Source: Diplocarpon mali (lineage: Eukaryota > Ascomycota > Leotiomycetes > Helotiales > Drepanopezizaceae). Taken from it: DNA of 64,000 nt. A program made the position numbers and the translations under genes. The DNA is taken from NCBI GenBank assembly GCA_024741835.1, contig JAENRP010000188.1, positions 19,226 to 83,225 on the forward strand. The letters are read 5' to 3'. Positions 2,201 through 63,992 of the stretch are shown one piece after another. The number at the start of each line of letters is the position of its first letter. Position 1 is the first letter of the stretch. The notes beneath the pieces were generated by a model that did no database searches, was not told the DNA's origin, and saw only the letters and a program-made list of their open reading frames with translations.

Positions 2201-2447
2201 TATAAAGACCTAGAAGTAGAGGATCTTATAATATAAGTCATATAATTAGATAAGGATTAAGAAAGGGGTATAAATAGGACTACTATTATACTTAAAGATA
2301 GCGTGTAATACTAACTACCTATTCTACCTTTAATTAGTGTATTGTCCTAGTTCTTATCTTCAGAGAGCCTGCTTATAGTACTTCCTCCCTCTTTGTCTTT
2401 AGTCTTCCCTTAGGCCTATTCTTATATTGTTCCTGCTCCCTCTTATA
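2201..2447 (+). repeat. 3' LTR of A-prime
   Basis: The block starts TATAAAGACC and ends CTCTTATA, and is 247 bp long, the same length as the Gypsy-A LTRs at 9689-9935 and 53833-54079. Its right half, from about 2350, is close to those LTRs; the left half has diverged more. The sequence after it is a Copia-type motif array, so this LTR marks the junction between two elements. The immediate right flank is ATAGT. Confidence 0.75.
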
Positions 2448-2691
2448 ATAGTCCTAGCTTAAGAGTCATCTTTAAGGACACTTTGCAATCTACCTATAGT
2501 CCTGGCTTAAGAGTCATTTTTGCGAATTTCACTTGCGATCCCGGCTTAGGAGTCCATCTATTCTCTCTATCCTCATTCAATTGTATTAGGGCGGAGAGTG
2601 CACTTTCCTTAAAGGAATCTACTCGTAAGTCCGGCCTAGGAGTCAATTTCTATAATATCACCTTTTGTAACGGATTGTCACTATATATAGG
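2448..2691 (-). repeat. Fragment of a Copia-1 type TPRPGLQV peptide-repeat array
   Basis: Positions 2452-2651 align without a gap to 63801-64000 in Copia-1. By eye there are about 25 differences, all transitions, and most carry the mutated base in the right-hand copy. Motif copies lie at 2444-2466 (damaged by the LTR junction), 2492-2514, 2531-2553 and 2621-2643, at spacings of 39 and 90 bp. The minus strand reads as T-P-R-P-D-L-R-V, T-P-K-P-G-S-Q-V and T-L-K-P-G-L-stop-V in a single phase. The plus strand is also open (2483-2842) because the motif is near-palindromic. I assign the minus strand because Copia-1 is coded there, but this is not proven. Confidence 0.6.
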
Positions 2692-3029
2692 TTGTACCCC
2701 GGTTGGTACCCGGTTCGGCTACGCCTTAGCGCGTGACCCGCTTTCCTTTATATATATATACTTCGCTCCTCTACTCCTTTTAAGCTCTATAGTTATTGAT
2801 TCTAAGTTATTACTAAGACGTTCTATTAGTATTACTATATAACTTATATATATATTAGTGCTAAGTAAAGGTTATACTCTTAGTTATTATATTATTAATA
2901 ACTCTTTCGCTTCGCTAAAGATAGCATTATAATATCTATTTAATTTATCCTTAGTAGTCGACCGAAACCCTAAAAAGTACGATAATATATTAGAAGGCCT
3001 ATACTAAGCTCTTGCTATAAGCTTAAAGA

Positions 3030-4513
3030 ATGGCTCCTCCTATCACTAGGTCTTTAAAGTCCCCTTGCTTTCCCTCTTAAAGAGGTGCTAGTATTACCCT
3101 TAGTACCTTTCCTACTAACTCCCTATTAGCCGATAACAATAGCCTTAAAGTCACTATATTATAAGCCGAATTAGACTCCCTATAGGCACGCCTTACGTCT
3201 ATAGCAGATAAGCGCAATAAGTATAGTTATAAGCTAAGTTCTATATACTAATAATTGATCGATTGGGAAAGGGATTTAGATAACCTTCGAAACGCCTTTA
3301 AAGGCATCCTTAGGTCAATTGAGAAAACCCTAGCACTAGAACGATATCCCTCTAGTTCACTTACGCGCCTCTAGCGCTCTATAGACTTCGACTTACCTCC
3401 TTCTATTTCCTCTACTGCGCGTAGTAAGCGATGCGACAATTAAGACGATCCTTCTTTTACTTCCCTTAACCGATATACTACTAATTTACCTTTAGCTTAG
3501 CAGCTAAACCTCCTCTATATTTATAATGTACTAAACCTTATTTAAAAACTGTCTAATGGTTGTAATTACTACGCTAAATATTAAGAGGCCTATATACTTA
3601 ATAATTTAGAGCTTTACTACCCCTACTTTCGTAAGGAACAGGCCTGGCTTAATTACGTTTTAAATTAGATTAAGGGTATAGCTAGGGACTAGCTGACCCC
3701 TTAGGTACTTAATAGGGACGCCTATATTACTGCTAAAACCTTAGTAAGTCAATTTGCTAAGTTTTTAACTAACTTAGTAGAATGCGAAAAAGCTAAGATC
3801 GAGTTTACTACCCTTTATATAAAGGCTAATAAGTCATTTTAAGAGTTCTACCTTAAGTTCTTCTAACTGGCTGCTATAGTAGAGATTAACGATAATAGTC
3901 GACTTTATAGCGCCCTTAAGGAGAAGATCCTAAAACGCCTCTATACCCCTCTTATATAGAAGTAGTATAAGACTAGGATATTAGATAAGTAGGTTACTAC
4001 TATCTAATAAGAAGACGCTAAATAGCGTACCGAAAGGATATTATATAATTAGATACGATATAAAGAGAGATCGGATACTAAAGCTAAAGCTAATTCTAAT
4101 AAAAATGCCTAATAAGGAGATACTAATAAATCAAATCCCTTATTTAAAAGCCGATCCGAATCCTATTTGAATTAACCTTAGTATAGTACCCTTAGCCTTA
4201 GTTTCGCTAAGTCCGAAACCTCCTCTTTTCTTCTATATTAGATTAATACCCTTAATATTCCCTTTCCTTTAGCTAATCGAAAAAATCAGTTTGATAAGCG
4301 GCCGAAATCCCCTTCTGCTACCCTTAGGTATTATAGCTCTTACGTTAATAAACTAGAGTATAATAATAACCAAGATTAGGAAGATAGTAAAGAGGAGGAC
4401 CTTAAGGCCGAATAAGATAATAGTAGCGCTCCCCTTCCCCCTCCGACTCTAAGGGAAAACGCCCTTGCCTAAGTAAAGCCTCCTTCTTAGGCGTTCTTCG
4501 AAATATGCGGTAC
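3030..4513 (+). pseudogene. gag: Gypsy-D gag relic
   Basis: The frame starts at an ATG at 3030 (MAPPITRS) and runs about 490 codons with repeated TAA/TAG interruptions that fit CAA/CAG/TGG changed by RIP. The N-terminal 120 residues look coiled-coil-like (heptads of leucine and isoleucine around an LTSIADKRNK segment). The middle part (about codons 230-340) resembles the Ty3/Gypsy capsid: a QFAKFLTN segment, then SFQEFYLKFFQLA, a common retrotransposon Gag pattern. The C-terminal part is rich in N, S, P and Q. I see no CCHC zinc knuckle. It overlaps the start of the protease frame, which lies in a different phase. Confidence 0.65.
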
Positions 4514-11128: not shown

Positions 11129-11425
11129 CACCCCTTTAGGAAGACCTTTAAAGGTACTTGCTAATAATATATATGATATTATAACTTTTGTTATAATCTA
11201 TAGTTTCGCATGAAAAATCAACCTGCAGATATAGGAAATAGAGTAAAGTTCGCTAGCGCGCTCTACTCTAGAGTAGGAAATCCACCCTTTAATAAGTTAA
11301 AAATCAACTCGCAGGCCCGGCCTAAGAGTAAAAAATCACCCCTTAATAGAAGTGCAAAAAAAAATCACCTTATAATAGAGGTATAAAAAAAATCACCCCT
11401 TAATCGAGGTATAGAACCTTTATAT
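11129..11425 (-). repeat. Copia-2 3' non-coding region with A-rich tandem repeat
   Basis: No gene. At about 11303-11416 a unit of roughly 28-30 bp (an A run, then TCACCCCTTAAT, then GAGGTAT or a variant) is repeated three to four times. One palindromic motif copy (11307-11329) is embedded at its start. The last bases before the LTR on the minus strand, CCTAAAGGGG, could serve as polypurine tract. Confidence 0.55.
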
Positions 11426-13212: not shown

Positions 13213-13391
13213 ACTTGCGGTCCTGGCCTAGGAGTGAAATTATTATAAGAGTTAGTATTAACTCGCGGTCCTGGCCTAGGAGTGAAAATATCGTTTTTAT
13301 AAGAGTTAGAATTGACTTGCGGTCCTAGCTTAGGAGTGAAAATATCGTTTTCGTAAGAGTTAGAATTGACTTGCAGTCCTGGTCTAAGAGT
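13213..13391 (-). repeat. Four-unit in-frame palindromic peptide array in Copia-2 pol
   Basis: Motif copies at 13213, 13261, 13315 and 13369, at spacings of 48, 54 and 54 bp, all multiples of three. On the coding (minus) strand the block is open without a single stop and reads F-T-P-R-P-G-P-Q-V-N-S four times with small variations, separated by linkers of the type NSYxNDI. It lies between integrase and reverse transcriptase, a linker region of the polyprotein. Confidence 0.8.
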
Positions 13392-14781: not shown

Positions 14782-14858
14782 ACTCTTAGACCTGGCCTGC
14801 GAGTGGAAATTGGCCTTAAGGAGGAGTTGGAATTGACTCCTAGGCCCGGCTCGCGAGT
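14782..14858 (-). repeat. Pair of in-frame palindromic motifs upstream of Copia-2 integrase
   Basis: Copies at 14782-14804 and 14836-14858, 54 bp apart. The minus strand reads T-R-E-P-G-L-G-V-N-S-N-S, a short linker, then T-R-R-P-G-L-R-V, in one open phase. They lie between gag and integrase. Confidence 0.75.
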
Positions 14859-16564: not shown

Positions 16565-18864
16565 TATAGATTCTATTAACCTAGACGGTTAATATAAAAC
16601 GATAATAGCTATATTTAAGGCTATTACTAATTACTTTCCCCTCCTTAGTTCCCTTAGCGCTCCTTACTTTATAGGCGCCAATATTACTAATTTCCTTAAG
16701 TAATATAAGGAAACTTATTACAATTTTAATATTATATAAAAGGATATGATTTCTCGACTTCCTTACTATTATAATTATATAAGTAAAGATATTATCAAAT
16801 CCTTTTTTAAATGGAAAACTTATAATTTATAGGAACTCCTTATTAAGGCCTTTAAATCTGAATTTTGCGAATTTAATAAATAATAGATTTGCGAAACTTT
16901 GGCTTTCTTAAAGGAATTTATTCTAATCACTTATACTTTTAAGGAAATCAAGAACTACTATTGGACTTTTACTTATATATCAAATACTTTAATTAGTTAG
17001 AAAATACTTAATAAAGTTAAAAGAGGCCGCCTTTTCTTACTTAGATTACCTATTAGCTTTTAAAATAAGATTATTAAGCATTTTAAGATTGATAAGTAAG
17101 ACCTTATAACCTTCGCCTTATTTAAGGAATTCTCGGCCTTTGCTTTAAAATCAGATCTTAGTAAAAGAACTATTAATGCTATAGAATAAGAAAAAGCCCT
17201 TACTCCCTTTTATACTAAAGACCTTAAGAGCCTGGTTTAAGAATACTCGAAAGCTCTGGAAGTTATAAAAGAGGTAAAGAAGAACCTAATAGTCATACCT
17301 TTCACTTATAGGCCCGACCTAGGAGTGAGATCCAACCTTAGAATTAAGGAACTTAAGACCTAATTTATAAAACTCTAAATCTAAAGCTTAGAAACTAGGA
17401 TTAATAATCTCTTATAGGAAAAATAGTATATTCCTTAATTTGGTAATAGGTAAAACTCGGCTATTATAAGCCAACCTAGTAGTTCTTATTACCAGACTCC
17501 TGCTTCTTATTATTCGGAATAACTAGCTAATATAAAAATTCAATAGTTGATTAAAAAAGGAGAAATTGATCCTAACTAGCACTTTGCTAATATTAATACT
17601 ATAAGATACTAAAGGAATAGCAATAGAAGAAGACTAACTTGCAACTTTTATAATAATAAGGAACCTAACTACCTTTTATATAAGTATTATAATAAATGTC
17701 CTCTTTTCTATTATTTTATTAATACTAAGGTTATATATTAATAAGTATAGGATGCTTTATATTAGAGATCCTAGGCTAAAGGCTATCCTTATTAAAAAAC
17801 ATCAGAATCGCTTATAGCTATAGACTATTCGAATAATGATATATAGTATAAAGTAGGATAAGGATTTAGCTAAACGAAAGCGTATTGTCGAAATAAACTC
17901 TAAGGTCTTAACTTATATATATAGGTTTAGTTAGCAATCTACCTAAGGGAGTGCTTACTAATTAAACTTTAAATCAGACTGCTACTAAAGTTAGAGGAAT
18001 CTCTATTTTAAAGTAGGTTAATAATAACGTATCTACTAATATTAATGCTACTTCTATATCTAGAAACCCTTAGAATACTTAGCGTCCTTTTAGATCTACT
18101 ACTCTTTTAATACTAATAAAACTAGCTAAAGTCTAAAAATCAATGCGTATAACTTAGGAATCTTAATATAGAGTCCAAATGCTAAAAGATATTTAATAAT
18201 CTAGAACTATAGTAGATAAGGATAAAGCTAATATAGCAGACGAATTAATTAGGGATATAATAGATAAAGATAGCTTTAAGCTTAAAGATTAAGAAGTTGA
18301 AGTTATTACGCAGACCTTTGATCCTAAGCGAAAGAGATAAATATTGAAATAGGAAAAATTCATTAATAAATACGCCAGTTTAACTGTAATAGAGAAAGCT
18401 GTAGAGAATGTTATAGCTTAATAAATAAACCTTATATTTAAAGACCTATTTAGGTTAATTAGATAGTTTGATAAAGTATTAAGAAAGCATATCCTAATTA
18501 CATTTAAAGATTTAAATAATAATAAGGAAATGGAAATTGTAATGCAAAAGAACTTTAAGAAGCATTTAGCCTTAATTAAATATCTTTAGATTATAAAAGA
18601 TAAAGGAACCTAAAGGTACTATAATATTATAGTAATAGCTTTAATATCTTAGAATATTAATTGAAATTGTTTAGTAGTTATAATAAAAAGCCCTATAGTT
18701 ATTTATTTTATAAAAGAATTAGTTAAAGCAAAGGCTCTAATCGATTATAGTTTAGAATTTAATATAATAATTAGAAAAGTAATAGAAATGGCTTAATTGA
18801 TAATTATTAGCGATCGACTTCTTATTTATTTAACTATCTTTAGATCGAAATACAATTTTAATAG
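16565..18864 (+). pseudogene. gag: Gypsy-A copy 1 gag and start of the pol polyprotein
   Basis: Continues the gag cut at 10881. It reads AIFKAITNYFPLL, KSEFCEFNKQQICETLAFLKEF and EIKNYYWTFTYIS, a helical Ty3/Gypsy capsid. An in-frame palindromic motif follows at 17304-17326 (T-Y-R-P-D-L-G-V). A zinc-knuckle-like segment lies at about 17635-17710; in copy 2 it keeps more cysteines (C-N-F-C ... C ... C-P). The rest, to 18864, is a less clear polyprotein region that should contain the protease. It is cut at 18864 by Gypsy-A copy 2, and the same frame resumes at 34575. Stops are frequent, mainly TAA for Gln. Confidence 0.7.
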
Positions 18865-46167: not shown

Positions 46168-49100
46168 ATGCCTTTAAAGAACTTATAAATGGTTTTATCT
46201 ACTGCGATAGAGGATAAATAAATACTAATTATAAACTTCTCTTAAGATAGTAGAGCTATTGTATTATTAAAGAGCTTTAAATTAACCTACGTAGCTTTAG
46301 GAGATATAAAGTAATAAAAACTCCTTTTAGCTTACGCGAATGCTATTAATAACCTTTTAACCTAAGTGGCCCTTAGAATTCTTTAATTTAACGACTTCTT
46401 AACTAAAGAATTAAGACTAAAGGGAATCTTTAAAAAGGAATTCTTAGCTAACGCAAATTAATATATAACCTTGGCTAACACTTTTAAAATAGACTAAAAT
46501 AAAAGGGAAGAATTTATTTGATAATTGGATAATTTAACTACTAATAAGAGAGGACTCTTATTTCGTTTGCGCTTTTTAATAAATATTAATTCTAATAATA
46601 AAAGGCGAGTATTATTAAAAATTCTTAAGGAAAATACTCTTATAGCTAGAGCTATTTAGATTCTCAATTTCTTTATTATTTAAAAAGGAGTAGTAAAATT
46701 TTAAGGCAATCGAATTCGCAGTTGCAGATTTATAGGCCTATCTAATATAGTACTTATAGTAGCTGATAGGGCTATAAAAAGATTAAATTAAGCTGTAGAT
46801 ATTACCCTACTTAATAGTACTATTATTAATATGCTAAGGCTTTGTGCTTTTACTTATAGTTTGCTTATTTTAAAAGAGAACTAGACTCTTATATTAAGGT
46901 TTAAATGAGATTTCTTTAATAATAAAAAAGGGAATTGGTTATTTATAATTAAGCCTACTTTAAAATTCGCTTCTTAGCTTAAAGATATAATAAGTACTAA
47001 ACTATATAATTTAACTTATAGTCTTAGACTAAGAGTTAGAAGCGAGAATTTTAAAACTGGACCTAACCTACCTTTTATTAAAATGATTTTAAAAACCGCT
47101 ATTAAACAAACTGCCTAAACGCTTAGCGCAGCCTTTTTAGAATTTTCAGAATCTTTAAAGGACTTTCCTTTAGCTAAACGACCAATTTTAGCTTAACCTT
47201 TAAAAAGGATAGATCGTTTAATAGCCACTTTAGCTAATTTGCAATTTAAAACCAAAGGATTGCGCGCTTACTTAAACTCCTTTTGTAATAACTTAAAGGA
47301 GCTAGTTTTTAACTTCTTTATATTTATATATAACTGTTTTAAAAATAATAATATAAGAGAAGACCCTATTCCTATTACTTTAAAGATAATTAAGAGAGCT
47401 ATTAGATAGATTTAATAACTTATCTTAAACGAGTTTGCCCTTATAAATATTATTTAATTCTTTAATAATTATAGAAGTTAAGAACCTAGTCTTTTAAATG
47501 CTAAGCAAGACTATTTTATCTTATAAGAAAGAGAATGCGAAGAGGAATCTATTAATTAAGATATTTATAATTATAGTAATATGCCTTAATCGGTCATTCT
47601 TAACCTTAAGCTTAAAGAACGATATAATATTTAAGTGTCCTTTGTAATAAAAACTCGCTTTCGATAGTATCTTCTTAGCGTAGGAATTGAAGGGAGAAGA
47701 CTTTGCGACCTTTATATTTGCTCTTTTTTAATTTACTATAGTCTTAATTATAAAGGATTTAATATTAATAAAACTATTAAATACCTCGAACTTCTTTATA
47801 TAGTAGAAGATATTAATCTTTTTTTAATCCACTTTAATAATTAGTTCTTTATCTCTTTAAGGACTTGCAAATCCAACTTATTAATAATAGAGGCATCTTT
47901 AAATGCTATAAAATTTAGGGCTGATCTTAAAGCCTTAAAAGCGTTAGAGCCGATTAAATAGAATAATTCCTTCTTATCGATATTATTAAGTAATAAATAG
48001 TAGGAGGAAATAGAGGAAGAAGGGTCAATTGTAATGCCTAAGCCCTTTGAATGCCGCTTTTTAACCGACAATTTTACTATTAATAATAGTACTTTTATAG
48101 GTATATTCCTCTCTATTATAAGATAAGAAGTAAAGATATATCTTTATTACTTCTGCCTTATAGATAGTATAACCTTTATACCTTCTTATTTTTTTTATAA
48201 TATAATATTTAATCTTATTTAATAAGTCCTTTAAATGTATTATAAACTCTACCTCTTAGCTATAATAGTAAGAAGTAGAGGAACCTATTAGCTTATAGCC
48301 TACTTTAAACCTTTTTAATTGATTAGCTTTAGTCTTTATAATTAAGTTGTTTTAATAAAGAGAGATGCAAGTGCTGCTAATAAAGAAATTCCGATTTTTA
48401 CTTATAGTCTTAGCCTGCAAGTTAATTTTATTAAAAAGTAAGTCTTAGATTATCAGATCCTATTAATTAGATAAGGGCTAGCTTTTAGAAGCCTTAATAG
48501 GTAGGTCGGCTCTTAGTCGATTGTAAAACTTATTCTATTTGCAAAGAAGATAAGTCAATAGACTTCTTAAGCACTTAATTTAAAATCTTAATTAGCTTAA
48601 ATAACTATAAAATTAAAGTAAAAGGAGATCTTACGACCTATTATTAATAATAGTAACTCTATTATAGTAATAATAAAATAAAGGCACCTTTTTAAAATGC
48701 GCTTAGATAAACTTTATAAAATTAGTAGTTTTATAGCCTTTTATAATAATTATATAGCTATTTGCAATAAGAATACTTTAGAAAATAAGACTCGAATCTC
48801 CGATCTTATCTTTTTAATCTTTACTTTAAAGCAACTTCTAATACTTCGATAGATTAATATAAGTAAAACTACTGCACCTTTTAAAGCAGCTTTTCATTTT
48901 AAGAATTGCAGTAGCCTTTTTAAAACTATTATTAATTAGCGCTCTTAAATAGATCCTTCTATTATAATCGAAGTATAGGAGTTATTCCTTTTTAATAAGG
49001 ACAAATTGAAAATCCACCTTATAGAATATAATTAAAAACTCTTTAATACCCTTATTAAGGCTTAGACGAATATTATAAATACTAAGTCGCTTCTTTATAA

Positions 49101-49483
49101 ACTTAAGTCTTAAAGATAATGCGATAAAGTAAATGTTATCCGAGAGCCTAATATACTAATTAATAAAGGTATTATTATAAGAAAATTCGGAAAAGAGACG
49201 AACTGAGACGCTAGTATAGTATTAGACCCTAATTTGGGAACTAATCCCCTATTTTTACCCTTAAGCTTAGAAACGCTAAGACTGACTCGCGAGCCCGGCC
49301 TGCGAGTAAGGTTAGACTCAGCTGGCTTAAGCTTATAAGAAAGTTCGAATAAACCTCGGTCACTAAATCTAAGAGTACTAATAGAAGATCTTTTAAAAAA
49401 GGTCCCTAAAGCTAAGAAATCATTAAGAAATAAGAACTAATGCAAAAGAAGAAGACTTCAAAGTGATAATAAAACTGATAATT
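46168..49483 (+). pseudogene. Gypsy-A ORF2: unrecognised protein of about 1,100 codons
   Basis: The frame can start at ATG 46168 (MPLKNLQMVLSTAIED with one TAA for Gln). It runs about 1,100 codons with scattered TAA/TAG at Gln or Trp positions and no frameshift that I can see. The protein looks soluble and mainly helical, with many Leu, Asn and Lys. The middle part reads TKGLRAYLNSFCNNLKEL. The C-terminal part reads SIVLDPNLGTNPLFLPLSLE and ends with a basic cluster C-K-R-R-R. Three palindromic motifs are in phase: 47014 (T-Y-S-L-R-L-R-V), 48400 (T-Y-S-L-S-L-Q-V) and 49285 (T-R-E-P-G-L-R-V). It lies on the same strand as pol and downstream of integrase, and is conserved in copy 2. I do not recognise a domain; DNA-binding, structural or cargo functions are all open. 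Confidence 0.6.
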
Positions 49484-50058
49484 AAGTCGACTCAATCTAG
49501 AGAATCTAAATCTACTCCCTTTTAAAAACCATTTAAAGAAATTGCAAATTAGAAGTTGAATTTCTTAGGATTATCTACTTTCTATATACCTATACCTCTT
49601 TATTCTTAACCTATTATTCTATTCTATATATATTCTTTATTTACTTTACTCTTTATATAATTCATTCTTTAATTATTCCCTTTATATATAACTTCCTAAC
49701 GCTTACCTTTAAAATGTTATCCTTACTTTTAACAATTATCATTTACCAATTATAGGTCCTTATATACGTTATACCCTACTTTTATTCCTACTTCCAGCTT
49801 CCTTATACCCACTTTTCCTTTATACACTAATGCGATTCTAAACTCTATAAATAAGCCTCTCCCTGCACTACGATTTTACTTTTTTTACTTCTTTTTTTCA
49901 ACCCTACTAGACCTATAATACTATCACTACTACTATTATCTTTCTATTATCAATCTTTTCTAGTATAAGCCTCCTATATTGTTAATCTTTCTTAAATAAT
50001 CATCTCTTCGTTTAAAGCTACCCCTCCTGCTAAATAATTCATTATAGTACTACTAACC
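49484..50058 (+). promoter_or_regulatory. Pyrimidine-rich intergenic stretch before ORF3
   Basis: About 570 bases with no gene. The plus strand is strongly CT-rich from 49560 on, with TATATAA-like sites (about 49685-49692) and pure pyrimidine runs such as TTTTTTTACTTCTTTTTTTC at about 49879. This is the composition of a fungal promoter and 5' leader, and suggests that ORF3 had its own transcription start. The matching region in copy 2 (about 22920-23440) is purine-rich on the plus strand, as expected. Confidence 0.4.
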
Positions 50059-53000
50059 ATAAGCAAAAAGGCCATACCTAAGAAGAGTATAGCTATCGTC
50101 GCATTAGGCAATAAGACCTTGGCCGCCCTTAGTAATAAACTAATATTAAAGGGAGGATTCTCTTAGGATGGTAAAACTTTAAGATCATTAGAAGATATTA
50201 TAAGCACCTATAGAATATTAGGTGAAATAGAATAGCAAATATTCCTAAATTCATCTATAGAAGTATTAAACTATAGAATTTCTACTATAAAAGAAGGATT
50301 TTTAAGCTTTGATGATTTTCTTAAGAATAAGCTTAAGATAAAAGGGATTGATTATGAAAAATTTCTATAGGAATATCAAAGGTATATTAATTTAATAGAT
50401 TTATTTCGGAAAAATCGAGATAAGAAGAATAAGTGTATAAAAAGATTATTGCAATTTATAGGTAGTACCTATAGTACACTTTTCCAAACCCACTTTATAA
50501 CTGATATTATTATTAATAACGCTTTATAAGGGCTTAGCAAAATCTTTAAAATATACTAACCTATAGTAAAGGCTATATAAGTGTTAAATCATTTCACTAT
50601 TTAAAAGGGTATGAAAAAGCTATAAGGAAATAGCATTAAAGGTAGAAAATTTGTTAGGTTCTTAAGTACTATTATATACTCTACTATTTAGACTATAAAA
50701 GATAAACCTTTATAATATGATAATTTTGCACTTTTTAATTAAACTATTTTAAATACACTTAGCCTTTAATAGTTGTAATATAGTCTACTTATTATAAAAG
50801 AAAAGATGACTTATCTCGCCGAGTATACTATGAATTACTTTAATGATAAGATAGAAAGATAGGAGTTTATTATCCCTATTACTTTAAAAATGCTACTACC
50901 CCTAGTAGGAATAACTGATGAAGAGAATTTGACTCGTAGGCCTAGCCTATAAGTAGAATCAGCATATAAGAAGGATATTCCTAAGCTGGAGGTACTTATA
51001 ATACTAAGAACTTAAGCAGCTAACCTACCTGATTACCAATCCTCTAACTCGGACGAATTTGAGTCACTATCCTTAGAAATGCCTTAAATACCTTAAATAC
51101 TAATAGTAAAGAAAATAAGTCGTAGGCCTAGCCTATAGGTTAATATATATAACGCTATAGACTTAAAAGATAATTTATCTAATAAAGAGATTAGTATTAT
51201 TACTAATATGCTAGAAATTTTTAATAACACTAAGAAGGATACTACCGATATTATACAATCTTTCCCTAATAACTTATAAAAATTTGTTCTTAAATTCTAT
51301 AAGTTAATAATAAAGCATTTAAGAAAAGAAGGTTAGGGAGAAGTCTTATTAGCATAGGAAGGGATAATAAAAGCTATTAAGCAGATTATAAAACTGCTAT
51401 AAGACGAATTTTCTATAAATAATATTATATAGTTCTTTATTAACTATAAGAAATTGAATAGTAACTACTATATTCTTAAAGAAAAGTCAAAAGATAGTAT
51501 AACTATTATCTTTATAAAATGCTATTAAGTTCCCTTTAATATTAAGATAATACTATAGCATAGCAATAGATTTAAGATTATAGTAATATTAGAAATGAAA
51601 ATAAGACTTTCTAAATTTGTAAAGGGAATATTCGAGGACTTTAATTTTAATAAATTCTACACCCTTTATAAACGATAATATACGTAGTACTATAGGCTGG
51701 CGATAATAGGCCTTAATAACGAAGATATATCCTCTAATATCTATAAATTTTGCACTACTTTTAACCTAAAGTTGTTTTTACTATACCTAAGGAATTATGC
51801 AATTATGGCTACTGGTAATAGAATAGCAAGCTAGGTTAAGAAAGATATATTATTAGGATTCGCTAAGTTTAAGGTAGCGCCTAAAGCTTTGAAATTATTC
51901 TATAATATCGCCTAGACTCCCGCCTAGTATAATACTATATTAACTAATAATAAATTAATATCATTCTAAAGTAAAGGTTTTTTAAATATGCTTAAGTTGC
52001 TTAGCTATGCCTTTTTAGGCACTATGCGTACGCATAGTCATAGCAATCGTAGAAAGAGTTTATTTTTAATAATAGTATAAGAAGAGCTAGAAATATACTA
52101 ATAGCATTTTCGGACCTTAGATAAGAAGCTAAGCCCCCCCTCCGCCTTCCTTTATAATATAACTTATAGCTTAATATAGCAGACCTTAAGGATGTATTAT
52201 AGTCTATATCTTAGTACTCTATTAACTTATTATAATTCTTTATATAAGCTAGTAGCGTATCCTAAGCTTGCATAGTTTATAAGCATTAACTACTATTTGC
52301 GAATTGTTTCTATTAAGATTAACGCTAATATAAGATTCGTAAGATTAACTCCTAGGCCTAGCTCGCAGGTCAATTCCCTTAATAGTAGAACTATTAACTA
52401 TTATATAATCCCTACTGCTAAATAGTCGATTAAAGAATTTGCTATATAGGAAAAGTCCTATAAGTCATCTATACTTATATCCTATTGTCTTAAGAACTCT
52501 TAATAGATCTCGCTAAATCTGATATAAAGCGCAGCTTAATAAAAAGAATTAAATACTAAGGATAGAATAATTCTAAAGGAGTATATCTCTAATAAGATTA
52601 CTCTATTTTCAGTATTTATAAGATAAGGCACCTTTATTAACCTGGACTTTAATAGAAAACCTAGAAAGGGTGGCTTTCTTACTATTAATAATAACTATAT
52701 AGAAGTTATTAGTAATAAATCACTTGAGAATAGCGCTGACCTAGAAGAATTCATTATCGATTCCATTTGCATAAAGAAACTAAGCATAGCGAGATAGAGT
52801 ATTATTAGAGAATCCTTAGCCAAGTTTCGTATAATACTTAGTATAATAAAAGGTGGTTTACTATCAAATGCTCTTATAAGAAGACAATTATAAAGTGATC
52901 TACTAGTAGTAATAACTAACTATAAAGGATTTGTTTGCGAAAGATGCAGCTTAGCTAATAACCTATTTGAAAAAGCATAGATAAGAACTTTTTAAAGATT

Positions 53001-53521
53001 TTATTAATACCTAGAAGCTAGTCTAACAACTAGAACTACAGTTATATAGCGATAAGTCTTAGATAAAGACTAAAGACACTAATAATAGTATCGAAGCTGA
53101 TAATATGATTAATAAGACAATTCTTCTTAAGAAGTATAGTATTAAAAAGCCTTATGTAAAAACCTCTAATACGACTCCCAGGCCTAGCCCGCGACTCGAT
53201 CTAGAGAAAGGCAAGGATAAGGAACTCGTATCCGTAGAATCCCCTGCCGCGTTCTTCTTAGCAGTAGATAACCCTTTAAAGGATGATAATAATAATAAAG
53301 ATAATAATAATAATAATGCTATAATATAAGTCTCTCTCCCTATTAGCAAAAGCCGTTATACTATACTAGGATCCGCAAGGAGTATAAAAGCTCCTGCTAT
53401 ACTAAGACCTATTTTATCGGATACTAATAGTGATGTTATAAGAAGAAGTGGTCGTTCGGCAAAGAGAGTATTATCTAGTAATAGTTCTCCCTATCCTCTA
53501 AAGAGAACTAAGGAAAACTAA
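50059..53521 (+). pseudogene. Gypsy-A ORF3: unrecognised protein of about 1,150 codons
   Basis: The probable start is ACC-ATA-AGC at 50059, an ATG changed to ATA by RIP (KKAIPKKSIAIVALGNKTLA follows). The end is TAA at 53519-53521 after KRTKEN. The protein is helical and charged in the first 300 residues (DGKTLRSLEDIISTYRILGE). The middle part has NKFYTLYKRQYTQYYRLAII, and a late segment KKHRQELFKDFINTQKLVQQ looks like a coiled coil. The tail has N/D repeats and RRSGRSAKRV. Four in-frame motifs: 50932, 51118, 52348 and 53174 (T-T-P-R-P-S-P-R-L). At least one phase change occurs between about 52750 and 52990. Function unknown. The last quarter is the least damaged part and is open at 53105-53329. 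Confidence 0.6.
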
Positions 53522-53832
53522 TACCTAGGTTAGTTCTATTTTTAATTATTTTGCGATTCTATAGCCTATTTATTTGTTTTACTAGTTTCGTTTTCTAACT
53601 CCTGGGCCCGGTCTATAGGTAAAAAGCGCATATAAAAAAAAAAAAAAAAAAAACTCTTCTTTTTTTTCTTTTACCTTTAATAATAATATAGCCCTAGTTT
53701 AGGCCTTTTAATATATTAGTTTTCTTACACTTAGGGTTTGCTAATAATTAATATACTATTACCTTAACCTATATTATTTTATATTCTTTACTAAAAGTAA
53801 TAAAGGCCACTACTTTTATTATTTAGGATATA
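53522..53832 (+). other. Gypsy-A copy 1 3' non-coding region
   Basis: No gene. Contains a motif copy (53598-53620, T-P-G-P-G-L-stop-V), an A run of about 19 at about 53634-53652, a pyrimidine block and AT-rich sequence up to the LTR. Confidence 0.65.
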
Positions 53833-54079
53833 TATAAAGACCTAGGTATAGATAAATCATATAACAAAAGTCATATAATAGGGCAGGGCCGATAGGAGGA
53901 TAAAAGGAGCCTCTTCTATACATAGAGACAGCGCGCGTCGCTATAAGTACTAAATATACCCTATACTTAGGACTTATTCCCAATATCTTATCTAAGAGAG
54001 CCCGCTTGTGGTGCTTCCTCCTCTTGTTTTTAGGTCTTCCCTTAGGCCTATTCTTATGTTGTCTCCCCTCTGTTTTATA
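53833..54079 (+). repeat. Gypsy-A copy 1 3' LTR
   Basis: 247 bp, TATAAAGACC ... TGTTTTATA, paired with 9689-9935. The right flank ATAGT repeats the left flank of the 5' LTR. Confidence 0.88.
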
Positions 54080-54860
54080 ATAGTATAACGAAGACTATAT
54101 GCCCACTTTATATAAAAGTTCTTCCTTTAGCCTCGATCTTCGCAACCACCTTATTAATATTGGCAAGCAAGCGTTCCTTACTCTGCGCAGCTTTCATAAC
54201 CGTCTTTTAAATGCGCTATTCTAATGCTTTGAATCTAGCAGGCCTTAGGTTAACCTACATCTTGCCTTAATTGGAGATGTTTTAGTATAACTATCTTTAA
54301 AGGTTGTTTCTTAATAGCCTTAACTTACTAGGTTGCGACTTCCGAATTATTATACTATCCTTTCTCTTTATTAGCATACTATCCCTCTTTATCTTAATAG
54401 GCGTAGATCGGTTATCTTTATTGTTTTTATTCTCTAACTTATTATAAAGCTAGTCGAAAGGAACCTTTTTACTAAGGGTAGCGCTATTTCTAAATAGGAG
54501 GAAGGTCGGGGTTAGAGTTAGCGAATCGGCAGGTTTATTTATTTCATTATCTATTAGGAGTAGGGTAGGTAATAGAAAGGCAGTAGGCTTAATGTCTTTA
54601 TTATTATCAGAGTTGTCGAAGTCGCTATTTATATCACTTGCAAATAGCAATTGGAAATCTGCTTGCTCTATTTTAGTAGGCGTAATAAGTTGATCGTCTA
54701 TTACTTATTAGGCAAGGGCGGCTTATATAGGGTCTTCCTCTATTAGAAATGCTATTATATTATTAATACCAATTATAGAATCGTCTTATATATTAAGGGA
54801 ATCGGCAGGCGCGATAGCAGGCGTAGTAGTCTTATTATTAAAGGGAAGGGGGTTATTCAT
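54080..54860 (-). pseudogene. Gypsy-C extra ORF, N-terminal part
   Basis: Minus-strand frame from ATG at 54860 (MNNPLPFNNKTTTPA) to the Gypsy-A insertion point, continuing at 9684. The first 130 residues are acidic and low in complexity (for example DINSDFDNSDNNKD). They are followed by a basic segment (RSTPIKIKRDSMLIKRKDS) and then helices (VNLRPARFKALE and MKAAQSKERLLANINKVVAK). With the part at 9200-9688 the whole frame is about 410 codons. It starts about 300 bases after the chromodomain end, so it is a separate ORF 3' of pol. No known domain recognised; a nucleic-acid or structural coiled-coil role is possible. Confidence 0.6.
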
Positions 54861-55230
54861 TAGTTCACTTATAATAATAGTTGGTTAAGTAGTTTAGTTT
54901 GATAATATAGTATATAGTAGTAGGGTAATAGGTTAAAAGAGCGAGTTGATTAATTTATAAAAGTAAAGCGAAGGTAGTAGGAAAGAGAAGTATTTATAGG
55001 AAAATAGATCTAGGCAGAAGTACTAGTATAGAATTAAGAATAAAGGAATAGAATAGTAAAGAATAATAAGTAGTAAGGCAGTAAATCATAAGAATAGTTC
55101 AAAAGGAAGGTAGTCTTTATTATATATTCTAAATAGGTATATTAGCATCTAGCGCTTTATTTCTAGTCTTTATTAGGATTAAATCGTTATAAGGGTATCT
55201 ACTATTATCGCTAATGCGTTTAGTAATAAC
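54861..55230 (-). other. Gypsy-C spacer between pol and extra ORF
   Basis: AT-rich, with no continuing frame on either strand that I trust. It may hold the 5' leader of the extra ORF. Confidence 0.4.
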
Positions 55231-57783
55231 CTTCGTTCTTAAGGACATTATCTAATAGGTGGTTTAAGTCGAGTTCGTCTTTAGAGGTGGCTTCTAGCTA
55301 GGTCTGCAATCTCGCCAAGGGCCTAAGGGCGTTAGGGTAATCAAAGTGGAACTTCTTAAGTAGTATAGCTACGTTTTTAAAGTTACTAGCAAGGTACTAT
55401 TAATCGTTAGGATCCTATCCTACCTAGCTAACTTTATAATAGAGTTACTTTTGCTATATATTAAACGCTAAGATTTAATCGACTTCCTATTCTAAATAGG
55501 TATTAATAATAATAGGTTCTACTAGTAGGTTAATCTGCTTAGGCAAGGGGTTATTAGCGGCTTTCCTTAGTCTATTAGCGTAGAAGATGTTATATATTTA
55601 ATAGGATAAGGGTAGGTCTACCTTATAAGAGTAGTAGACTAGACTAATGATTTTAAAAGGGCTTATAATAAGGAAGTCGAGTTTATTAAAGGGTCGGTCT
55701 GTTTTCCAAGCTCTCTTTATAATATATACTAAGTCTCTTAGGCCGAAGTCGGGTTAGCGTCGCTTTTTATTTGCTTATTTGGATTATCTCTCTTAAGCTA
55801 CTAGTATAGATTCTTAAGCAAATTGGACTGCTTTATTAATTCTTTTGGCTTATGCTTATACTTCTTCCTTATTTAGCTTCTCTTAAGTGTTCGAGTGCTT
55901 TATAGTATAGGCGGTCTAGTCAAAATCCAAGCGGGGTTTATAGTTATAATCGACTATAGAGAGGGAGAGGCCAGTTGACTTATATAAGTAAGCGGCGCTA
56001 GCGGCGTCTATAGTAAGGAGTAAGTCGGCCCAATCGTCCTAAAAGTAGTTAATAAAAGGGCGCAGTTATATATTAATTATCTAGTTAATAATCTCAGTCT
56101 ATCTGTCTATTTAAGTATACTTAAAGGTCAATAGCTGGAGTTTGACCTATGCTAGTATTAATAATTCGTTTATAAAGTCGGAGATAAACTAAGGTCCTTA
56201 GTTGCTAGTAATAGTAAAAGGGCTCCTTTTAAACCTTTAGATATATTAGTAAAATAGGGAAGCGGCGATCCGCGTAATAGCCTTCTTTATTATTAGTAGA
56301 TAGATATACCGCTTAAAGAGTCGGTCAACTATAACGAATATAGTATCGCAGCTATTACTAATTAATCCAAGAGTATAGAAGTCTATAGATAGGTCGTCCT
56401 ATATATGTAAAGGGATAGGTAGTAGTTTAAGGAGTCTTAGCGTCTTATCTTAAGGTTTATATAAATATTAGCAGTTATAATAGTTAGCAATATACCTCTT
56501 TATATTACAGTAGTACGTAGGCCACTAGTAGTAGTATTAAAGGAACTATATAATCTTGGTTCTACTAAGGTAAGCTATTGATATGCTATTATAGATTTAG
56601 TAGAATAGGCAGGTGCAGAGATTATCCGATTCTTTAAGAACTACTAGCCTTCTATTATATAGGAGTAGTCTATCCTTTAGTAGAGTCTAAGGAGTCTCTT
56701 TTTTAAAAGCTTTCTCTCGCTTTAATTGCAGCGATTCATAGGTCTGGTTAGCGTTAAGGACTTCTTCTATTATCCGGAAATTATTAATAAAGGAGTGGTT
56801 CTTAAGTACTATAGGGTCGACTGGAGCTATTATAAGACGATCCTAAATAATACTAGCTAGGTTAAGAAGCTATCGGGTTCTTTCAGCTTCTTTTGCAGCT
56901 TTTTAAATAAGCGTAAGTTCGTCTTTCTATAATAGTATATTAGCTATTATATTCTCCTTTCTAAGGCGATAGGTAATCTGGTAATTATATCTTAAGAGAA
57001 CGTCTATCTATCGGATTTATCGTTTATTAAGGAGTTTTTTAATACTAAAGTACTTTAAAGCTTTATAATCGGTAATTATTAAGAAGTTTAATACACTTTA
57101 TAACTCTGCGTCCTATTCCTTTAAAGCTAATATAATCGCTAGTATCTCTTTATTATAGATTTCGTAATATGATTCCGCATTCTGCAATCCTTTAAAGAAG
57201 AAGGCGATAGGGTACTATTATTTATCGTTCTTATCTTTTTAGCTAAGTACTCTAGCTACTGCTAGGTTTAAGTAGTTGGTCTTAATCCTTATTAGTTGGT
57301 GATTTTTAAAGTATAGTAAGGTAAGAGCGGTTAATAGCCGCTTCTTCAATTGTTCGAACGCGTCCTATTATTCCTTAGTTAAGGCGAACGTTAGGCTAGT
57401 ATCCTTTATTATAAGCTGATTAAAAGGGCGCGCGATTCGACTATAGGCTTTAATAAATCTTTAATAGAAGTTCCAGAATCCTAAGAATAACTATACCTAT
57501 TTCTTTATTAATAGGGAGGTCTATTCTTTAATAACCTTAACCTTGGCAAGGTCGACCTATACTCCTTAATTAGTAACGATAAACCCTAGGAATCTAATGC
57601 TAGTGACTTCGAATTTGCACTTCTTAATATCGACCTACAGGCCAGCTTTATATAGTCTTTCTAAGACTTATTTAATATAGTGTCGGTACTCTTCCTTAGT
57701 TTTCGAGAAGATTAAGATATTATTAATATATATAAAGCAAAAGTCATTTAAGTATTCTATTAAGATAGTATTACAATAGAGTG
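55231..57783 (-). pseudogene. pol: Gypsy-C pol relic: partial reverse transcriptase, RNase H, integrase, chromodomain
   Basis: Minus strand. The polymerase is present only from just before the catalytic box, which reads F-I-Y-I-N-N-I-L-I-F-S (box at 57719-57730, Y-I-N-N for Y-x-D-D). Then come KFEVTSIRFLGFIVTNQGV and FNQLIIKDTSLTFA, and RNase H (YYEIYNKEILAIILALKEQ). Integrase follows with SIDFYTLG (first Asp, about 56380), TITSNQGPQFISDF (second Asp now Asn, about 56190) and QIDRQTEIINQ (Glu kept, about 56100). The chromodomain-like end is EQEVDQILAFN ... ASNFKNVAILLKKFH at about 55280-55520. TAA/TAG stand for Gln or Trp. It is cut at 57783 by the LINE, so gag, protease and the 5' LTR are missing. 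Confidence 0.85.
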
Positions 57784-59520
57784 ATGCGCTTTTATAAGAA
57801 CCAGTTTAAGGGTTATTCCATAGCAAACGACGCCTACTACCTTCCATTCTTTGCAGAATACCCCAAACACCTTGCCCTTTTGCCCCTATAAGCTGCAGTG
57901 GCTTATTACTACTATAATAGCGAAGTAGGTGGTATAGAGCCCTTGAGCGACCCCGCAGGCGTCCCCTATTACAACTCCGATTCCCTTATAAAGGAGGGAG
58001 AGCTACCTAACCCTATTAGAGGCTTTGATTCGATTTCTAAAGTCGAATTAACCCTTAGGGGTAACCTTATTGCAAGAGGTAGAGATTCGAGTAATAACCC
58101 CTTCAATTTTACCCCTATTTAAACCAACGCTAGCCGAATGCGGAATGCGGCTCCTTTGGCTAATTTAAGCTAAATTGTTAATAATGCCAAAAGGGGACTA
58201 CTGTCCCTAATAGATTAAAGAGCTAATAAAACCCTTAGAATCGACTTCTCCTTTTAAAATGACGCTAGTAGTATTAGTACTAATAAATCAATTAAGCTTG
58301 TACTTTAAGTAAGAGACCTCCTTATTAAAGCATACTTAGCAACTAATTCTTAGGAAAAACAGACGAAACTACTTGATTTACTTAAGGTTTTCAAAGAGTA
58401 TATAGAGTATAACTGTATTAAAAACACTTTTACGATTCTAGCTATATAGGTAGCTAATTTAAAGAGAGCAATATAGAAAATCGAGCAAATGCTAAAAACG
58501 TATACTTAAGTAATTAAGTCAGCAGCAGTAGCTACTATAGCTACTATTGCAAATTATAGTACTAGCGCCACTACTAGTAGTACTAGTATAGGTGGCGCTA
58601 ATAGGAATAGGGCTAGGGCTACAAGTAGCCCTAGGAACCCTACCGCGAATTCGGGGCCTAATAAGCCAAAGGGAAACGGTAAGCCAGTCCTTTTTAAGAG
58701 ATGCACCCTCTTATAGTCCCCTTTGGCTTCGACTACTTCTTTTTCGTCAATTGCTTTACATAATCGAATTAATGCTACTTTTAAAAAGAACAGTTTTAGT
58801 GATTTAGTAATCGCTACTATATCCTTATCTTTATATAAAAATATTGTTTTAACTATTACTCCTACGTTTAGTATTGATTTTTTAATTTCAAATAAGGCTA
58901 TTATTAAAAGGGTGCTTCCTTAATTAATTAGCCTTAAAAAGGGAGAGCTATAGTATAAAGTAGCTATTTACAGTATTCCGTTTGCGGATTTTAATATAAA
59001 GCGTAGCCTAGACTTAGAGCTAGACTTAAAAGAGATTAAAACCTTTAATAAGGGTTTTACCTTAATAGGAAAATCCTACTAAGCTACTTTAAAAGAGAAA
59101 CGTAACTCTGGTTTATATAAGAGTAGTATAATTATTATCTCTTTCCTAAATGAAAATCAGGCTAAGCGAGCTATAAGCAAAAGACTATATATCAGTAGCG
59201 CTTTAGTAAAAGTCGTTAAATATATAGCTATTAGTAGTATATACTAATATAAAACCTATACTAGATTTGGCCATTTAAAGGTTCTTTATAAAAGAGAACT
59301 AAAATGCTCCTTATATAGAGGCAACTATATAAGATAGGCTTATACTTATAATACTTATAAGGTAAATATTAAGTATAACTATACTAGTATTAAATGCGCT
59401 AATTGCAAAGAAATTATACATTCGGCTGATTTTAAGCTATATGAAGTTTTTATTATAATTAAAAATAAATCTATAGAAAAACGTACTACTAGTAGTACTA
59501 CTATTATAAATTGATTTGGC
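57784..59520 (+). pseudogene. LINE ORF1 (Gag-like, zinc knuckles)
   Basis: The frame probably starts at ATG 57784 (MRFYKNQFKGYSIANDAYY). It passes one TAA at about 57889 into GGIEPLSDPAGVPYYNSDSL. A helical middle part has KVFKEYIEYNCIK and VANLKRAIQKIEQ. A Ser/Thr/Asn-rich linker follows, then SGLYKSSIIIISFLNENQA and KRLYISSALVKVVKYIA. The C-terminal block has TRFGHLKVL, KCSLYRGN and IKCANCKEIIHSADFKLYEV (about 59395-59450). This order, an RRM-like fold followed by three CCHC-type knuckles, is the ORF1 pattern of Tad1-type fungal LINEs. Several Cys are lost through G-to-A changes. ORF1 would bind the element RNA. Confidence 0.75.
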
Positions 59521-59928
59521 GCTCTTTCTACTATTAATAATAATTGGGAATAAATGCCTATAAATTAATGTAAATAGAAGCTTGCCTACTATAGAGCACG
59601 TTTTATAAATAGCTGTAGAGTTATCTATTGATTTAATTGCGATTTAGGAACTTTAGATTATATAAGAGAACGATTTATTATATAGATCTATTATATACTT
59701 TAGTTTTAAATAAATCCTTTTAAATTAAAATTCCTTTAGGCTTAGAATGTTATTTTATATTTTAAATAAAATATATGCTATGCTAGCGCTTAGCTTATTA
59801 ATTGATCCTAATTGTATTATTATAAACGTTTTTCATATTCAATTAATTAATATCTATAATGCAAGTTACCTTAAAATGCCGAATAATATTAAATTCTTAG
59901 AAAGAGACTGTTTACTAATATTATTTTC
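59521..59928 (+). pseudogene. LINE ORF2 start, endonuclease-like, truncated
   Basis: After ORF1 a degraded frame leads to the open stretch 59747-59944. It contains FHIQLINIYNASYLKMPNNI, comparable to the IINVYNP strand of apurinic-type endonucleases in LINEs. The catalytic residues are not visible and the copy ends at the Copia-1 LTR. Confidence is limited to the general assignment. Confidence 0.45.
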
Positions 59929-60123: not shown

Positions 60124-60420
60124 CCCTTACTTAGACCTTACTTCAATTGACCTGCAGTTAGGAAAATAATAACTATCCTTTTGCCCTAATCCAACTCCTA
60201 GGTATCTCTTTAAATTAAAAACAATCAATTAATAATAACCTCTATTGAAATTACCAAACTCTACTCGCAAGGTAGGATTAGGAGTTAAATTTCCTAAAAG
60301 CATTCCTTTATAAGACTACGTGATTTGACTCGCGGTCTAGGCCTAAGAGTCGATTTAAAAACTTTCCTTTATAAGACTACGTGACTTAACTTATAGGATA
60401 GGCCTAGGAGTCATCCTTAA
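60124..60420 (-). repeat. Copia-1 3' non-coding region with three palindromic motifs
   Basis: Motif copies at 60263-60285, 60328-60350 and 60389-60411. The last two are part of a 61-bp tandem duplication with the flank CTTTATAAGACTACGTGA. They lie after the RNase H stop, so here the motif is probably outside coding sequence. Spacings of 65 and 61 are not multiples of three, in contrast to the arrays in coding regions. Confidence 0.6.
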
Positions 60421-62440: not shown

Positions 62441-63450
62441 GCTTAATAGTATTACTATTAAGTAGTATACCTTGCGAATCTCTAAGTATATAGAGCTTTA
62501 AGGATAGCTCCCTCTTATTTTAAAATTTGTCGAACTCAACTATTAAGGATATAATTACTCGCCTTAAATCTAGCGCGTATACTATCTATTGCTTTATTAT
62601 CTATTTAATATACCTAATAAATATATACTCTCTACTTTAGTCTATTAGCTTTTTACTCTTTATACCTATAGGCTAGGAATTTGGGCTAATATAAGAGTAG
62701 CAAACGCTTTTAAAGACGCAGATATAATTTAAGCTTAGTTTTTATTTAAAATATGCCTTATATAATGATATTTAAGTGCTATTGACTATTAGTCTACTAC
62801 CTATTCTATTTTATAAGTATATATTTGCCTTAATCGCAAGGTCTTAGAATTCTAATAGTAGGTTAGTATCTTATAGTAGAGCGCGATAGTCAGTCTCTAC
62901 TTGCTAGATGCTTCGCTTAGCGATGCTATTCTAATAGGAACCTTTATATATTATAGTTAGTTTATAATAAACTCTTTATTTTACCTATTTATTAAGCTTT
63001 ACTTTAATCTTTAATATATTATTAGACCTAATAGTTATTAGCTTTAATTAAGTCTAGTATTCCTTTATCACTTTTTAAGTTTCTAGCTTTTCTATAAGCT
63101 TAGATTTAGTCCTAGCGTAAATAGTCTATATCTATTAAGTAGAGTTATTTACTATTTAAGAAAACTAATTATTTCCTTTAATTAAGGTTATAAATAGTCT
63201 AGTGGTATTAATAGATATTAGTGCTAATATCGAATCTTTCTATAAACTAAGCTTAATTTGCATCCGATTTCGAAGTTTTATTAATTTGCAAATTTAATAT
63301 ATTAAGCGATCCTTTAATACTTAGATCTTCTATTTTAAGGTCAAGACCTTATATAGGCCCTTTAATTTCTTTAGCCTTAAATGCGCAAATCTTTTATATA
63401 TTAGCTAATACTTTAATAAGCTTTTAACTTCTAATAGCTTTAATAGCCTA
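62441..63450 (-). pseudogene. int: Copia-1 gag-pre-integrase and integrase relic
   Basis: The minus strand reads YKRFAHLRLKKLKGLYKV (zinc-binding H-x3-H region, about 63360-63420) and ICKLIKLRNRM (second half of the zinc site). The core follows: LISINTTRLFITLIKGNN (first Asp, now Asn, about 63200), TIRSNNILKIK, then QNSIAKRSIQQVETDYRALL (about 62880-62940). VFKSVCYSYISPNS and EYIFIRYIK end the domain (about 62620-62690). Order and spacing are those of Copia integrase. Catalytic Asp residues are changed to Asn where readable. Confidence 0.8.
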
Positions 63451-63522
63451 TCGTTAGTCGATGCTTTATTATTAGCAGCTAAAAAGGACTAATAATAGCA
63501 GTTTAAGGTTTTACTATTTTCT

Positions 63523-63992
63523 AATTATAAGCTTGGCTTAAGAGTCGTTTTTAATAAAACTGCAAGATCTACTTATAGTCCTAGCTTAAGAGTCGATTTT
63601 CTAGAAATAGCAAGATCTACTCGCAGTCCTAGCTTAAGAGTCATTTCTAACGAATTTGCGAATTTTACTTATAATCTTAGCTTAAGAGTCATTTCTACGA
63701 ATTTTACTTGCGATTCTAGCTTAAGAGTTATTATTAGCAAATCTGCAGAATCCACTCGCAGTCTTAGCTTAAAAGTCATTTCTATTAAATTCACTTATAA
63801 TCCTAGCTTAAGAGTTATCTTTAAAAATACCTTATAATCTACCTATAGTTCTAGCTTAAGAGTTATTTTCGTAAATTTCACTTGCGATCTTAGCTTAAGA
63901 GTCTATCTATTCTCCTTATCCTTACTCAATTATATTAAGGCAGAGAGTGCACTTTCTTTAAAGGAATCTACTTATAAGTCTGGCTTAAGAGT
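63523..63992 (-). repeat. Ten-unit in-frame palindromic peptide array of Copia-1
   Basis: Motif starts: 63523, 63571, 63619, 63667, 63706, 63754, 63793, 63841, 63880 and 63970. Spacings are 48, 48, 48, 39, 48, 39, 48, 39 and 90, all multiples of three. On the Copia coding (minus) strand the units read T-L-K-L-G-L-Q-V (Q often TAA) followed by 5 to 8 residue linkers such as DLAVLLK. The array lies upstream of gag-pre-integrase and continues past the window end. The plus strand is nearly as open, owing to the motif symmetry. 63801-64000 is duplicated at 2452-2651. Confidence 0.8.

Follow-up and report, generated by a model that had tools for sequence, protein, structure and literature searches.

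Why does one short GC-rich near-palindrome recur in fungal retrotransposons that appear to have no other sequence in common, and why is it mostly read in the same phase? A 64,000-nucleotide stretch of the Diplocarpon mali genome (GCA_024741835.1, contig JAENRP010000188.1, positions 19,226 to 83,225 of the forward strand; hereafter the window, with positions counted from its first letter) raises this question. The first-pass annotation of the window had described a 23-bp palindrome scattered in Copia- and Gypsy-type elements, read as one peptide and likened to the Rickettsia palindromic elements. The observation of a dispersed palindrome in unrelated retrotransposons is confirmed here, and the interpretation is partly supported. 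The copies form a real dispersed family carried by unrelated elements, lying mostly in phase, inherited within element families, changing in tandem number and missing from some homologues. With a probability of about one half, we regard the unit as a palindromic cassette of ~27 bp that has spread among families of long terminal repeat (LTR) retrotransposons, exerts its effect as DNA or RNA, and is tolerated in proteins as an in-frame Gly/Pro linker.

Copies and anatomy of the palindrome

A position weight matrix (PWM) trained on 57 window copies finds 60 copies of the near-palindrome (a 23-bp core within 27 bp) in the window, a count that is partly circular because the training copies come from the same window. 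Nothing scores between 8 and 18 bits, and the reversed or complemented window has no match at 8 bits or above. With a loose pattern of the palindrome there are 46 matches in the window, compared with none in the reversed window and two in 3 Mb of Markov-1 sequence. The earlier figure of more than 50 copies is thus far above chance, with controls near zero; the first copy lies at 478, upstream of the 2444 given before. Out-of-sample use of the matrix on twenty 10-kb loci of contig C1 gives, together with the 60 window copies, a total of 124 at 16 bits or above. The genome-wide motif search that the first-pass annotation had proposed bore out the family: across the assembly (49.4 Mb, 676 contigs), a strict pattern has 497 exact matches (0 reversed), a purine/pyrimidine (R/Y) pattern 8,077 (1 reversed), and a GC pattern, representing less mutated, GC-rich forms, 106 (0 reversed). 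The R/Y scoring was used because repeat-induced point mutation (RIP) makes transitions.

The window has 29% GC, a TpA/ApT ratio of 1.48, a (CpA+TpG)/(ApC+GpT) ratio of 0.51 and no frame open for 200 residues; its DNA is RIP-mutated and AT-rich, and its motif copies are RIP-mutated and decaying. Throughout the sampled sequence the motif resides in RIP-mutated AT-rich DNA with LTR retrotransposons. The R/Y pattern occurs 0 times in eleven GC-richer loci (110 kb, a small sample), 30 times in six AT-rich loci (60 kb) and 43 times in the window, a comparison that leaves out the partly AT-rich loci L030, L032 and L034, and the top PWM score in nine GC-richer loci is 12.4. The sample that stands for the whole genome here comprises 200 kb of one contig and small loci. 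Occurrence in host sequence with no phase preference, which would have spoken against the first-pass interpretation, was not seen in this sample. In the accessible text of PMC11527701, the D. coronariae genome consists of 34% repeats, mostly LTR/Copia; a like share in the present genome would suffice, at the sampled density, to hold 8,077 copies. Scans for tRNA genes and Rfam families gave 0 matches, and a pattern scan of IMG/VR gave 0. A lone motif copy lies at G000:C1:292109-292131, with none other listed on C1 between 3.7 and 394 kb, and could be a host-gene copy. The window contains assembly gaps (N runs) at 5809-5880 and 19288-19324, the second inside a Gypsy-A copy.

An artefact of RIP or of AT-rich composition can practically be dismissed as the source of these copies. 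The region is RIP-mutated, as its TpA/ApT ratio indicates, but the reversed controls give 0-1 matches against 106-8,077, which already refutes the idea, and both GC-rich forms and an intact protein exist.

The unit has the consensus YN-ACT(C/T)NYRRNYY-N-RRNYYRN(A/G)AGT-NR, with two arm types. For its description the 124 copies were grouped by their flanks, with register and E-value limits, into 28 site clusters; this is a low count, since the largest cluster (38 copies) lumps the Copia-1 and Copia-2 arrays, their flanks having been compared with adjacent motifs still unmasked. In all 28 clusters the second base beyond the left end is Y and that beyond the right end is R, which makes the unit 27 bp, YN-(23)-NR, rather than the 23 bp first described. 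Weak symmetry continues to ~35 bp, and conservation stops within ~6 bp of the core. Arm positions 1, 3, 4, 6, 7, 8 and 11 are invariant in R/Y, positions 2 and 10 almost so, and position 9 is R in 79%; the single central base, position 5 and the base immediately beyond each end are free. Cluster representatives, including the untranslated and out-of-phase sites, match all 20 determined R/Y positions in 24 of the 28 cases and 19 positions in the other four, the template being derived from the same clusters. When the unit is read as codons, R/Y identity is fixed at third bases 3 and 6 and at their symmetric counterparts 18 and 21, and third bases 12 and 24 are free, a pattern that follows palindrome logic rather than codon logic.

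The arm types differ at position 5, which is Y in type A and R in type B. A hand tally of 123 copies gives 96 A-B, 26 B-B and one A-A pair; among the 8,077 genome-wide matches there are 54 A-A, 1,108 B-B and, by subtraction, 6,915 A-B, with ~1,527 A-A pairs expected from the arm frequencies. Because the copies are related by descent, these statistics are no clean test of function. RNA of two GC forms folds into hairpins (-13.2 and -16.0 kcal/mol, z -2.8 and -2.4) in which position 5 is unpaired. Orphan half sites number 78 as compared with 54 in the reversed control; some of them can be recognised as full copies that have decayed or been truncated. A longer element with these arms as its terminal repeats finds no support in that count. 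The layout of a miniature inverted-repeat transposable element, terminal inverted repeats around an interior, was not found either: the centre is one base, and split halves are in slight excess.

Sites, reading phase and the encoded peptide

Copia-1, Copia-2, Gypsy-A and Gypsy-B are the motif-bearing families with domain-anchored frames. The sites are listed below with a motif-free comparison element; P0001 is an intact Copia protein of D. coronariae (PZA11_001233, 1,491 residues) found in a search with the Copia-1 frame.

10882-16560, minus strand: Copia-1, with RVT_2, SH3 and gag domains (Pfam)
14782..14858, minus strand: two palindromes (14782, 14836) in phase 0 in the Copia-1 gag–protease linker (aligned to P0001)
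13213..13391, minus strand: four palindromes (13213, 13261, 13315, 13369) in phase 0 in the linker between the SH3-like part of integrase and reverse transcriptase (Pfam frame; aligned to P0001)
11307..11329, minus strand: 3' untranslated palindrome of Copia-1 (tblastn with P0001; homologous copies in loci L037, L038, L040 and L041)
~59928-64000, minus strand: Copia-2 (RVT_2 frame, Pfam)
63523..63992, minus strand: ten palindromes in a tandem array that precedes the pol domains, with spacings of 39, 48 and 90 bp, in phase 0 with the RVT_2 frame
60263..60411, minus strand: three palindromes (60263, 60328, 60389) directly 3' of where the pol homology stops (60492), with spacings of 65 and 61 bp
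2492..2643, no strand assigned: three palindromes (2492, 2531, 2621), a remnant of the Copia-2 array (sequence comparison)
18856..34577, minus strand: Gypsy-A, 15.7 kb, with 255-bp LTRs and 14 palindromes (sequence comparison)
28580..28602, minus strand: palindrome between RNase H and the integrase H2C2 zinc domain of Gypsy-A, coding, in another phase (domain-anchored frame)
41875..54088, plus strand: partial second Gypsy-A copy of 12.2 kb, inverted relative to the first and 86% identical; all 12 sites compared are occupied (alignment)
1454..1476, no strand assigned: palindrome in a diverged relative of Gypsy-A, at the position that corresponds to 32625 (alignment)
34618-41873, plus strand: Gypsy-B (domain-anchored frame)
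36186..36208, plus strand: single upstream Gypsy-B palindrome, out of the pol phase and in phase with the frame that is most open locally (PWM, frame check)
37973..38040, plus strand: two palindromes 45 bp apart, upstream of the Gypsy-B reverse transcriptase, in phase 0 (anchored frame)
39905..39972, plus strand: two palindromes 45 bp apart, after the Gypsy-B RNase H, in phase 0 (anchored frame)
54089..59927, minus strand: Gypsy-C, a homologue of Gypsy-B with reverse transcriptase, RNase H and SH3 domains and no palindrome (comparison element)

Most coding positions have the same phase, as first described. Phase 0 is found at all six Copia-1 sites within the open reading frame (ORF), at 10/10 sites of the Copia-2 array, at 4/4 Gypsy-B sites around reverse transcriptase and RNase H (36186 being the Gypsy-B site that is not), and at two of three sites in Gypsy-A pol (30709 and 30547), with 28580 as the exception. 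Further downstream, Gypsy-A has eight motifs, four in the pol frame and four in the frame next to it, each in phase with its own frame (8/8), and motifs 32625 and 33634 lie upstream, outside any anchored frame. Spacings between neighbours less than 120 bp apart are multiples of three in 41/41 cases outside the Copia-2 3' cluster and in 1/6 inside it (three copies), both counts including homologous copies; in the window cluster the spacings are not multiples of three, and 60328 alone of the three happens to be in phase. Stop codons within 90 bp average ~3 in phase 0 and 6.4-7.3 in the other phases (124 sites, which are not independent). Stop-codon bias as the sole cause of phase 0 was rejected, as the GC form read by eye is open in all three phases. 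The phase preference may come from a preference for Gly/Pro residues or from a shared coding ancestor.

The claim that the motif always lies in interdomain linkers holds for many sites and fails for others: 11307, 60263, 60328 and 60389 are 3' of pol homology, and 19344 is close to an LTR. In the case of Copia-1, homology to P0001, followed through the protein's final residue, stops at 11403, and 11307 is therefore 3' of the ORF. Immediately before the palindrome in the 3' untranslated region (UTR) of Copia-1 (L037, L038, L040 and window ~11330-11410), there is a repeated stretch of ~30 bp (GGTGATTTTT...).

P0001 is 64% identical to the window Copia-1 over residues 19-1491 (tblastn) and shows the peptide in an undecayed form, with two copies of T-R-E-P-G-P-G-V in its gag–protease linker and three of T-P-G-P-G-P-R-V in its integrase–reverse transcriptase linker. 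Each of these five copies aligns to a Copia-1 motif, the window having one extra in the integrase–reverse transcriptase linker (4 vs 3). Each peptide represents one strand of the palindrome, both orientations occur in one protein, and the T-P-R-P-G-L-Q-V of the first-pass annotation is a RIP-decayed reading. Such a short Gly/Pro peptide, obtained from both strands in phase 0, fits survival in linkers.

If the peptide itself were selected, as a polyprotein linker or processing peptide of the T-P-G-P-G-P-R-V kind, the palindromic DNA would be a by-product, and we consider this very improbable. The motif is in phase at gag-protease, integrase-reverse transcriptase, pre-reverse transcriptase and RNase H-integrase junctions and is open in the intact P0001, as the idea would have it. 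A selected peptide or protease site would, however, be translated in a single phase throughout, and the same DNA is found beyond the 3' end of the ORF in two Copia families and takes another phase at 28580; third-codon bases are fixed where symmetry requires, the two peptides are two strands of one palindrome, and 125 of the 126 proteins fetched in two homologue searches (the second being the best 120 of 2,470 matches) lack the peptide, P0001 being the one that has it. The first-pass view of one peptide as the driver thus gives way to a constraint that tracks the palindrome, the 3' UTR sites having the same sequence and one coding site being in the other phase. A search with the peptide of the Copia-2 array (L016:12-533, minus-strand reading) returned 3,538 candidates, none with E<=0.01; according to the Copia-2 Pfam matches, that reading is of the antisense strand. 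The stretch 2440-2670 is a Copia-2 remnant.

Some homologous elements are without the motif, which supports the first-pass interpretation. In an alignment of 16 proteins, P0008 and P0009 (57% and 58% identical; P0009 from Rhynchosporium graminicola) lack ~34 residues at the gag–protease motifs. Gypsy-C has 34% amino-acid identity to Gypsy-B and a best motif score below 0 bits. Locus L036 (G000:C102:131001-134500) holds a motif-free Gypsy-type frame that is open for 1,024 residues at 49% GC. Tandem number differs as well: L039 has one motif where the window Copia-1 has two, and the homologue L028:6089 has one motif at the place of the RNase H pair of Gypsy-B, where two homologues have two, with an exact 45-bp gap. 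Elsewhere, a Gypsy-type frame at G000:C200:6014 is open for 1,024 residues despite the RIP-active genome, and inside Gypsy-B a 134-bp unit is repeated twice in tandem (35309-35576, 98% identical).

The 14 Gypsy-A motifs start at 19344, 19769, 20591, 21821, 22007, 23611, 24496, 25882, 27145, 28580, 30547, 30709, 32625 and 33634. When these sites were compared across other copies, 39/39 were occupied, which indicates vertical descent within the Gypsy-A family. The 15.7-kb layout of this element is unusual: after the integrase (19500-27000, minus strand) it has two paralogous stretches of ~1,000 residues with 29% amino-acid identity, for which the frames scanned gave no Pfam match. Two motifs occupy identical alignment columns in these stretches, and motif 21821 sits inside an 18-residue segment that the paralogue is without. 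Some motifs thus predate the duplication of the stretch, or entered twice at one place, and at least one differs between the paralogues.

Ordinary recombination, in which a coding tandem repeat is passed on from one element with its flanks and the palindrome is nothing special, is improbable in our judgement. Tandem arrays differing by whole units, vertical inheritance in Gypsy-A and the slight half-site excess are all in its favour. When motifs were masked in Copia-1, Copia-2, Gypsy-A and Gypsy-B, however, none of the three best matches per pair of elements was at a motif, the best being ~60-80% matches elsewhere, and copies exist in both orientations and in UTRs. The masked comparison also supports the first-pass statement that these elements share no other sequence.

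How the palindrome may have spread

The symmetric pattern, its disregard of codon position, its persistence 3' of ORFs and its occurrence in a second phase argue for a constraint on the nucleic acid. Under the reading we prefer, a cassette with two arm types would have spread through several families of LTR retrotransposons in one helotialean lineage, mostly within coding linkers. It would act as DNA or RNA, with its symmetric bases conserved and its peptide no more than a tolerated Gly/Pro-rich linker. Copying between families may have occurred most likely by template switching of reverse transcriptase at the hairpin, in particles with mixed RNAs; selection could then have retained the copies that preserve the frame. 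Maintenance of the sequence might be owed to a dimeric protein or to the hairpin as such. A bolder form, in which the unit is a self-spreading mini-element inside retrotransposons that jumps between families by reverse transcription, yields a harmless linker whichever strand is read and now numbers ~8,000 copies in a single genome, is held here only tentatively, with the odds leaning against it.

A rather unlikely alternative, although one with several points on its side, is that the palindrome is a site for a dimeric protein of the host or the element (for example, a chromatin, tethering or silencing factor), kept by selection or gene conversion and not mobile by itself. This would agree with the symmetric R/Y constraint across the 28 site clusters, with the spread of 14 sites over 15.7 kb of Gypsy-A, with arms that are not independent (54 A-A pairs observed, ~1,527 expected), and with motif columns common to stretches that are just 29% identical. 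Against it, no binding protein is known, the sites are dispersed in coding linkers and not near LTR promoters, and clear protection after RIP was not seen, G/C columns of decayed copies differing at 0.302 inside the motif and 0.360 outside. A binding site alone also leaves it unexplained how unrelated families acquired the same sequence. By the same figures, RIP protection or present-day selection of the motif is weak at best.

Several observations weigh against the spreading cassette. Neither an autonomous partner nor a binding protein was identified. The comparison of element copies proposed in the first-pass annotation yielded neither an exact insertion edge nor a target-site duplication, and no empty site at the nucleotide level, every compared Gypsy-A site being occupied. 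Only some sites look like insertions, because linkers vary among relatives: P0010 has its own long, unrelated and motif-free insert at the gag–protease place, and the integrase–reverse transcriptase linker of P0001 is not longer than those of its relatives. At the RNase H–integrase motif pair of Gypsy-B, the gaps in Gypsy-C (23 and 12 residues) are off the motif edges, and Gypsy-A motifs 23611 and 19769 are not co-aligned in the piecewise alignment. The decayed window form of the motif folds no better than its shuffles, and the decayed copies give little sign of selection today. One A-B master copy would account for the arm statistics equally well, and the slight excess of half sites may include a separate class of half sites.

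Comparison with known systems

The closest likeness is with the Rickettsia palindromic elements (RPEs) and the protein-coding palindromic repeats of Wolbachia, which, like the present motif, are dispersed palindromic DNA in frame within unrelated protein genes. In the accessible portions of PMC10969869 and PMC2996958, such repeats sit where an extra peptide is tolerated, and those of PMC10969869 give a length of ~150 bp for RPEs. The fungal unit is a palindromic repeat (27 bp) that lies in frame in protein genes, with the exception of 28580, and the likeness drawn by the first-pass annotation is functional only. It does not extend to the definition: RPEs are bacterial and occupy ordinary cellular genes, whereas the present unit has 23-27 bp, is fungal, has so far been found in retrotransposons, is often tandem and also lies 3' of ORFs. 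Its conservation stops within ~6 bp of the core, well short of an RPE. As to ordinary cellular genes, the 110 kb of GC-richer sequence, a small sample, contained 0 copies, and the lone copy at C1:292109 may lie in a host gene.

PARCEL (palindromic amphipathic repeat coding elements) also resembles the fungal motif in the accessible text of PMC2996958, with tandem coding repeats, dyad symmetry of the DNA and a link to mobile elements in some taxa. Those repeats are amphipathic, 25 residues long and located in ORFs of unknown function and membrane proteins; the present ones have 8 residues with variable spacers in LTR retrotransposon polyproteins, are Gly/Pro-rich and recur in spacing units of 13, 15, 16, 18 and 30 residues. 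The bacterial repetitive extragenic palindromic (REP) sequences are similar in being palindromes of 20-40 bp with high copy number, as described in the accessible part of PMC3733652. They differ in being extragenic and bacterial. REP sequences are tied to a dedicated transposase family. Short GC-rich palindromes on an AT-rich background, thought to be mobile, are also known as the GC clusters and double-hairpin elements of yeast mitochondria; unlike the present motif, these are mitochondrial and mostly intergenic. Literature searches confined to open-licence papers turned up nothing comparable in fungal retrotransposons.

The D. mali palindrome makes it possible to test whether symmetry in DNA or RNA can dictate what a protein contains, and offers densely marked sites for the study of reverse-transcription recombination, or of a site-specific factor, in RIP-active fungi. 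If true, the proposed spread would be a source of new linker peptides in polyproteins, and a 27-bp palindrome that moves between unrelated retrotransposons and is read through would be a parasite of parasites on a very small scale. Should the self-spreading form hold, the unit would represent a nuclear eukaryotic counterpart of protein-coding palindromic elements.

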